Of a DNA stretch of 64,000 nt, positions 61,571-63,698 are shown piece after piece. The notes under the pieces were generated by a model. It had not been told where the DNA came from and searched no databases. It saw only the letters and a list, made by a program, of their open reading frames with translations. A program made the position numbers and the translations under genes. This stretch comes from Candidatus Methanoperedens sp. (GTDB lineage: Archaea > Halobacteriota > Methanosarcinia > Methanosarcinales > Methanoperedenaceae). Position 1 is the stretch's first letter; each line of letters begins with the position of its first letter. The stretch is from positions 186,001-250,000 of the forward strand of contig VEPM01000001.1 in the NCBI GenBank assembly GCA_012026795.1. Direction: 5' to 3'.

Positions 61571-62596
61571 ATGAAACTTTCCGAATTTGACTATCATCTT
61601 CCTAAAGAACTTATTGCCCAATCTCCAATAGAACCAAGAGACGCATCTAAATTAATGGTGGTGGGACAACAGGGGAAACAGATCGAGAACCGTTTTTTCT
61701 GTGATATCCCGGATTACTTTGAGGCCGAAGATACCCTTGTTCTTAATGATTCAAGAGTGATACCTGCAAAGCTGATGGGCAAAAAAAGTACAGGCGGCTA
61801 TGTGGAAGCGCTTGTTGTCTCAAAAAATGACGCTGGTTATGAATGCATGATACGTGGGAAGAATATCCGCGAAGGTACAAAACTTAATTTTGGTGAGCTT
61901 GAAGCAACAGTGCTCCAGATCCTGGAGAGGCCCAATACGAACAGGTATCTTGTTAATTTCAATTGTAATGGGAATCTTCCTGATATTCTTGAAAAAATAG
62001 GGGAAGCGCCTCTGCCTCCGTATATCAAACAAAAACTCGATGATAAGAACCGCTATCAGACTGTCTACTCGAAAGAAAAAGGCTCAATTGCAGCGCCAAC
62101 AGCCGGCCTTCATTTCACGAACGAGTTATTGGGGAGGATAAAAGAAAAAGGCGTCAACATCGCTTATGTTACCCTGCATGTAAGCCCCGGTACTTTCACG
62201 CCGGTCAAGGCCCAGGATATTGAAAAACATATTATGGAACCCGAATATATTTCTGTCAGGAGGGAAAATGCAGATATTATCAATGGAACACGGGGAAAAC
62301 TCATAGCAGCAGGAACAACAACTGTAAAGGCGCTTGAAAGTTCATGCATTGACGGGAAAATAGTAGAAAAAGAAGGATTCAGTGAGCTTTTTATTTATCC
62401 ATCATATCAATTCAGGTCAAGAATTGATGCTATGATCACAAACTTCCATCTTCCTGAATCCACGCTCTTGATGCTTGTGAGTGCTTTTGCAGGCCGGGAA
62501 CGCTTGATGGAGGCTTATAATAAAGCCATATCACATTCATACAGGTTTTACAGTTTCGGGGATGCAATGCTTGTTTTCAAGGGTAGGAATAAATAA
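61571..62596 (+). CDS. queA: QueA, S-adenosylmethionine:tRNA ribosyltransferase-isomerase
   Basis: A 341-residue protein matching bacterial QueA throughout: [20 protein letters not shown] at the start, [17 protein letters not shown], the active-site block [15 protein letters not shown] and [10 protein letters not shown]-type end ([20 protein letters not shown]). QueA transfers ribose from SAM to preQ1-tRNA, forming epoxyqueuosine. The enzyme is a hallmark of bacterial queuosine synthesis and is unusual in archaea. It lies one base before the tgt start region and is probably co-transcribed. No clear Shine-Dalgarno is present. Confidence 0.96.
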
Positions 62597-62597
62597 T

Positions 62598-63698
62598 ATG
62601 TTCAGGTTGATCCACACAGATAAAATTACAGGAGCAAGAGCAGGAAAACTCATGACCAACCATGGCATCATCGATACTCCTGCATTCATGCCAGTTGCCA
62701 CAAAAGCGACTGTGAAGACCATTACAACTGACGAGCTGTACGAAATGGGAACACAAGTGCTGATAAGCAATGCTTTTCACCTGTTGCTCGCTCCAGGGAT
62801 CGAGATTATCCAGAGAGCAGGCGGCCTGCACAAATTCATGAACTGGAAAGGTGGAATATTTACTGATAGCGGCGGCTTCCAGATGATACGGAAGGATTTC
62901 CCGTTCAAGATAAACGATGAGGGAATTATTTATAAGAACCTGCGGGACGGGAAAAAATACTCTTACACTCCTGAAATATGTCTTGAGAACCAGAAGCTGC
63001 TTGGAAGCGATGTGGCAATGATGCTTGATGATTGCCCTGCTTACGGGAGTGAGTTTAGCGTTGTTGAAGCATCAATGGAAAGGACAATAAAGTGGGCATC
63101 CATGGCCAAAAATGTGGAACAAAACCACGGACAGCTCTTTTTTGCAATACTCCAGGGCGGGACTTTTGCAGAATTGAGAAAAAGATGTGCTGAGGAACTG
63201 ATAGAGATGGATTTTGACGGCTATGGTATAGGCGGCCTGTCGATCGGTGAGCCCAAGGAAATAATGAATGATGTTTTGAAATTTAGCGTTCCGCTTGTTC
63301 CTGAAGATAAAGCGCGCTACCTTATGGGTGTGGGTTCACCGATAGAGATATTAAATGCGATCGAATCCGGCATTGATATTTTTGACAGCGCATTCCCAAC
63401 ACGAAATGCGAGGCACCAGACCCTCATGACCTCAAAAGGGAGTATTGATATTGCGCGGAATAAATTGGCAATGGATTTTTCACCGATAGATGAAAATTGC
63501 GGGTGCTATACATGCAGGAATTATACAAGAGCATATTTGCATCATCTTTTCAAGGAATCCGAACTCCTGGCGCTTCGGCTTGCGTCCATACATAATCTTC
63601 ATTTTATCCAGTCAATAGTGAAAGGAGCAAGGGAAGCGATACTTGAAGACGGTTTTTCAGACTACAGGAAGAATGTGATAGCAGGTTTGATGACTTAA
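62598..63698 (+). CDS. tgt: tRNA-guanine transglycosylase, bacterial (queuosine) type
   Basis: A 366-residue Tgt. The catalytic motif [17 protein letters not shown], nucleophile Asp in [15 protein letters not shown], and zinc ligands [17 protein letters not shown] plus a later His match the bacterial enzyme. Archaeal TgtA has long C-terminal PUA and related domains, which are absent. Residues SI in GGLSIGEP keep the bulk of the preQ1-type pocket. The start ATG at 62598 follows GGTAGG. It presumably inserts preQ1 at position 34 of GUN-anticodon tRNAs, feeding QueA. Confidence 0.95.

Follow-up and report, generated by a model that had tools for sequence, protein, structure and literature searches.

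Queuosine genes and a candidate iron–sulfur replacement for QueF in Candidatus Methanoperedens

QueA depends on the aminomethyl group that preQ1 carries; for archaeosine synthesis, preQ0 is sufficient. To our knowledge, QueF is the only enzyme that converts preQ0 to preQ1. The bacterial de novo queuosine pathway consists of QueD, QueE, QueC, QueF, Tgt, QueA and QueG or QueH. Pathway reconstructions use QueF as the preQ0 reductase (PMC11130926, PMC6593275), and its chemistry involves NADPH and a cysteine thioimide (PMC5372742). In a 2024 paper, only bacteria were said to make queuosine from scratch (PMC11130926). Genes for QueA, QueH and Tgt were reported from 34 archaeal genomes by Castelle et al. 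2021 (PMC8204110), in a figure that includes Methanosarcinales and DPANN; the main text of that paper makes no mention of QueF, preQ1 or a replacement enzyme. Among iron–sulfur proteins of the HGD-D family, DCCP reduces acetylene, azide and hydrazine and has no known physiological role; the relatives of this family contain clusters, [4Fe-4S] or [8Fe-9S], that an ATP-driven activase feeds (PMC11971306).

In the window, i.e. the whole stretch of 64,000 nucleotides analysed here, a first-pass annotation had described a complete QueA, a 366-residue bacterial-type Tgt without archaeal C-terminal domains, and ArcS. All three descriptions were confirmed with profile models:

33465–35264, plus strand: arcS, archaeosine synthase alpha subunit, 599 aa; NF040592 716 bits (cut-off 440), with PF17884, PUA and TGT_C2 domains
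61571–62596, plus strand: queA, 341 aa; NF001140 420 bits (cut-off 324), TIGR00113 380 bits (cut-off 267)
62598–63698, plus strand: tgt, bacterial-type tRNA-guanine(34) transglycosylase, 366 aa; TIGR00430 450 bits

QueA exceeded both equivalog cut-offs and aligned end to end with the solved QueA structures 1yy3 and 1vky. The tgt open reading frame spans 62562–63698, with a longer in-frame start at 62562; translation from the in-frame ATG at 62598 gives the 366-residue protein and leaves one base between the queA stop and tgt. Tgt scored above the cut-off of the bacterial model (307 bits) and well below that of the archaeal TgtA model (153 bits only, cut-off 350), contained the TGT domain alone, and carried the Asp nucleophile motif FDSAFPTR and the zinc motif CGCYTC...H. 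Alignment to solved structures showed the motif GGLSIGE, in which Ile stands for Z. mobilis Val233, and a Cys (DDC) equivalent to Cys158. Judged by the published roles of residues 158 and 233, where Gly233 marks the queuine type and Cys158 with a bulky residue at 233 the preQ1 type (PMC3660597), the predicted pocket is of the preQ1 type and not of the queuine type. The dN/dS ratio was 0.055–0.086 for queA and 0.055–0.096 across queA and tgt; the pair is under strong purifying selection. An open reading frame upstream of queA (60931–61467, plus strand, 178 aa) matched no Pfam or NCBIfam family.

Further deazaguanine genes were located elsewhere in the same genome. TgtA was encoded on contig C17 (478 aa, 630 bits, cut-off 350), and contig C10 encoded RaSEA (392 bits, cut-off 212) and QueC (TIGR00364 188 bits, cut-off 150). 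A QueD-like PTPS on contig C23 passed PF01242 (73 bits) and fell short of the QueD equivalog cut-off (71 versus 89 bits). A QueH gene was found on contig C21:

C21:56213–56752: queH; PF02677 204 bits (cut-off 23.5)

The cysteine motifs HVCCAP, RCxxC and YCGC of QueH line up with those of T. maritima QueH (7lc5), and Tgt, QueA and QueH are all ordinary family members by profile score and motif. With TgtA, ArcS, RaSEA, QueC, the QueD-like protein and QueH present beside QueA and Tgt, both deazaguanine pathways therefore coexist in this genome, as the first-pass annotation had proposed. Contamination or misassembly was ruled out because queA, tgt and arcS share one 266-kb contig and the queA–tgt pair is kept across the genus; genome completeness is 99.98% and estimated contamination 2.35%. 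Tgt, QueA and QueH are held in common with the bacterial de novo pathway. In contrast to that pathway, the preQ0 source is shared with archaeosine, TgtA, ArcS and RaSEA are also present in the host, and QueF is missing: the genome had no match to PF14489. A search for QueF had been proposed in the first-pass annotation, and its absence is the real surprise of the pathway to which this locus belongs. In several Methanoperedens genomes, queH has RaSEA and a GMP synthase subunit nearby (L079, L080, L081, L103, L112), a chromosomal link between the archaeosine and queuosine pathways.

Among 60 relatives, QueA was found in 41. Its distribution covers almost the whole Methanoperedens family, a second family and a single genus of a third; it was absent from the other groups sampled. 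In a phylum-wide sample, 11 of 393 genomes encoded QueA, all in the same order, and QueH followed the same pattern. The archaeal Tgts grouped in a single clade (SH-aLRT 100) that was nested within bacterial Tgt and well separated from TgtA, and archaeal QueA also formed one clade (SH-aLRT 85), in trees built by a quick method with SH-aLRT support only. The grouping of Tgt with TgtA that the first-pass annotation had named as a refutation was thus not seen. These trees rule out a recent transfer. The family-wide distribution, the single archaeal clades and the purifying selection support one old gain of queA and tgt, probably followed by inheritance. The horizontal gain suggested by the first-pass annotation was thus upheld as such, but it is ancient, was followed by inheritance within families, and is not special to this genome. 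As the same three enzymes had already been published by Castelle et al. 2021, that observation, though genuine, is for the most part not new. Added here are the lack of QueF, the presence of TgtA, ArcS and RaSEA in the same genome, and the candidate reductase described below; for the QueF gap and the reductase, no earlier report came to light.

The QueF gap extended to the relatives, where a profile search found no QueF in 40 of the 41 QueA-encoding genomes; all absence calls rest on one 81-position model (PF14489). The single match among all relatives lay in genome G006, on a 62-kb contig that also carries genes of phage type and a separate QueC, and for these reasons was not accepted as a host QueF. 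This phage-like contig (L095, G006:C66:1-18000), binned with a Methanoperedens genome, encodes QueC, QueF and FolE, a combination reminiscent of phages whose DNA contains 7-deazaguanines.

By inspection of the gene neighbourhoods of queA and queH, a candidate reductase and its activase were noticed on the contig that carries queH, with two genes between the activase and queH:

C21:52518–53504 (L074:6018–7004): gene for an HGD-D-type iron–sulfur protein; PF06050 79 bits (cut-off 28.4)
C21:53501–54187 (L074:7001–7687): gene for an activase ATPase of the BcrAD/HgdC type (PF01869, TIGR00241); TIGR00241 174 bits (cut-off 125)

Other neighbours were rejected as preQ0 reducers. A SAM hydroxide adenosyltransferase and an XTP/dITP diphosphatase, both recurrent beside queA, have no nitrile-reduction chemistry; a PP-loop protein near queH is a GMP synthase subunit and not pathway specific, and its radical SAM neighbour is RaSEA.

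The candidate reductase was encoded at full length in 41 of the 60 relatives, 39 of which also encoded QueA. The four disagreements were all in genomes of 61–81% completeness; among relatives at least 90% complete, the reductase was present in 29 of 29 genomes with QueA and in none of the eight without it. In the phylum sample, it occurred in 11 of 11 genomes with QueA and in one of 382 without. These counts overstate the number of independent events, since both genes are confined to the same few related families, and common descent may account for much of the co-occurrence seen in archaea. The split of the third family, with QueA and reductase in one genus and neither in the other, is one independent event. 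Pathway-linked reductases formed one clade apart from the HGD-D paralogues (SH 95), with three invariant cysteines (Cys58, Cys86 and Cys282 in L074 numbering) and a common HxxQxxC motif near the C terminus.

The reductase, usually accompanied by its activase, occurred in five genomic settings linked to 7-deazaguanine genes. In archaea it was found near queH (L074, L099, L202, L203) and beside queA–tgt in two genomes from a related family (L087, L109); in most Methanoperedens genomes it did not adjoin a queuosine gene. On plasmid pILYOP01 of Ilyobacter polytropus, the operon order was reductase, activase, queD, queE, folE, queC, with no queF within the operon. The pair there takes the place expected of queF, in an operon holding every step to preQ0. 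No preQ1 riboswitch was found upstream of this operon or upstream of queA. In two Omnitrophota genomes, the reductase gene began 4 and 7 bases downstream of a queE-like gene that scored below the QueE equivalog cut-offs, and no activase adjoined it. A third Omnitrophota genome (G449; L140, L226) encoded the reductase together with queA–tgt, and of the bacterial sequences in the quick tree its Tgt lay closest to the archaeal Tgts, though on a long branch that reduces this to a hint. None of the three Omnitrophota carriers had a QueF by PF14489, their weak matches being FolE with a CEHH motif.

The only carrier without QueA in the phylum sample was a Methanosarcina-type genome (G396), where the pair closes an island of nine genes on one strand. 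The same kind of island was found on a Haloplanus plasmid:

L201:60–11226 (G396): DpdA-like, BREX/MADS-like island encoding GNAT, DpdA-like, two small unknown proteins, a 1,300-aa ATPase, PglZ-like and HerA-like
L239:5986–18393 (Haloplanus plasmid NZ_CP098519.1): the same DpdA-like, BREX/MADS-like island

Like Dpd/BREX-type DNA modification islands, the G396 island combines a TGT-family protein, distantly similar to DpdA, with HerA-type and PglZ-like partners; it differs from them in its low DpdA score, in carrying the candidate reductase pair and in its BREX-like ATPase partner. Its TGT-family protein (L201:613-1575) scored 26.6 bits with NF041059, for which the DpdA cut-off is 200, and is called DpdA-like only; the HerA-like protein of the island is a HerA/mads_8-type ATPase. 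The Haloplanus island has no reductase but is adjoined by queC, queE and a PTPS gene, and on this account resembles a defence system that modifies DNA with 7-deazaguanines. A partial relative of the island was present on an Oscillatoria plasmid (L240). The analysis itself shows which genes are present, the families to which they belong, how they co-occur and are linked, and that QueF is missing.

With DCCP, class I benzoyl-CoA reductase and 2-hydroxyacyl-CoA dehydratase, the candidate shares PF06050, cysteine ligands and a paired ATPase activase (PF01869, TIGR00241). In contrast to these proteins, it belongs to a separate clade of approximately 315–335 aa that is linked to 7-deazaguanine genes, and its scores with NF040772 (double_cubane), 31.8–69.2 bits, lay far below the equivalog cut-off of 350. 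The comparison with QueF is one of function only: the candidate would catalyse the same reaction, preQ0 to preQ1, from the same place in operons, but it is a PF06050 protein of an unrelated family and not a T-fold protein (PF14489), and it would use iron–sulfur clusters and ATP instead of NADPH and a cysteine thioimide. It would be chemically plausible for an HGD-D-type cluster to reduce a nitrile to an amine. Literature searches, which missed most subscription journals and bioRxiv, found no link between preQ0 and the HGD-D family, and no HGD relatives were found in the viral contigs and phages searched.

From these data we infer the enzyme activities, the role of the reductase and the tRNA product. 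The HGD-D protein and its activase are proposed to form a non-orthologous, ATP-driven preQ0 nitrile reductase. We consider it reasonably probable that this archaeon makes queuosine from scratch at tRNA position 34, with this pair in place of QueF, in addition to archaeosine at position 15. QueD, QueE and QueC would supply one preQ0 pool for both pathways. TgtA would insert preQ0 at G15, where ArcS and RaSEA would convert it to archaeosine. In the other branch, the HGD-D-type protein, energised by the adjacent ATP-hydrolysing activase, would carry out the four-electron reduction of the preQ0 nitrile to preQ1, which the bacterial-type Tgt would insert at G34; QueA would then add the epoxycyclopentane group and QueH would reduce epoxyqueuosine to queuosine.

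The chief rival, which we regard as possible though unlikely, is that preQ1 is imported from neighbouring bacteria, with Tgt, QueA and QueH finishing queuosine and the iron–sulfur pair doing something else. Salvage appears to be common in nature: 33 of 49 QueA-encoding bacteria tested had neither QueF nor the candidate reductase, and preQ1 salvage was inferred for 601 of 2,228 gut genomes in a survey (PMC6593275). Most of the tested QueA-encoding bacteria without the reductase thus also lack QueF, so that a missing QueF alone is weak evidence for a replacement. The host archaea, moreover, live in consortia with bacteria. However, the genome has its own preQ0 genes for archaeosine (QueC, QueD-like), and import gives no account of why the reductase pair tracks QueA or sits in clusters with queDEC, queE, queA or a DpdA-like gene.

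Less probable still, the pair acts on 7-deazaguanines at another step, for example as a second epoxyqueuosine reductase or as a modifier of preQ0 already inserted into tRNA or DNA. The linkages are all to the pathway as a whole and not to a single step, and the HGD-D family is capable of several kinds of low-potential reduction, as this reading would have it. Against it, epoxyqueuosine is already covered by QueH, no epoxyqueuosine arises in the Methanosarcina-type carrier without QueA, and QueF is the sole gap in the Ilyobacter operon.

We think it very unlikely that preQ1 is made by a QueF that has diverged beyond recognition by the Pfam model, or by another unseen enzyme, with the linkage of the iron–sulfur pair due to coincidence or to inheritance across the clade. 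Reliance on a single short model would permit this, and any gene special to these methane-oxidising families would show the same distribution as the reductase. The model nevertheless matched clear QueF proteins at 91–122 bits in 16 diverse bacteria and picked up even the distant relative FolE, and the linkage recurs outside the clade, in Fusobacteriota and Omnitrophota. That queuosine is not made, the imported genes being relics or recruited to other chemistry, is highly improbable given the low dN/dS ratios, the operon structure, the conserved catalytic motifs and retention in three families.

The replacement of QueF by the HGD-D-type pair may apply more widely. With marginally less assurance than for Methanoperedens itself, we favour the view that this clade and its activases represent a second, unrelated type of nitrile reduction, an ATP-driven QueF replacement in anaerobic archaea and bacteria that feeds tRNA queuosine or 7-deazaguanine DNA modification and provides a physiological substrate for a DCCP-like branch. 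If so, methane-oxidising archaea of the ANME-2 type would draw on a single preQ0 pool for archaeosine and for queuosine at the wobble base, genomes that are at present classed as auxotrophs for want of QueF may in fact be producers, and this branch of low-potential iron–sulfur enzymes would gain a physiological role.

A SAM hydroxide adenosyltransferase gene was absent at the queA locus of the window and present upstream of queA in approximately ten related loci (L076, L077, L078, L080, L081, L096 and others). This link may be functional, because QueA consumes SAM.
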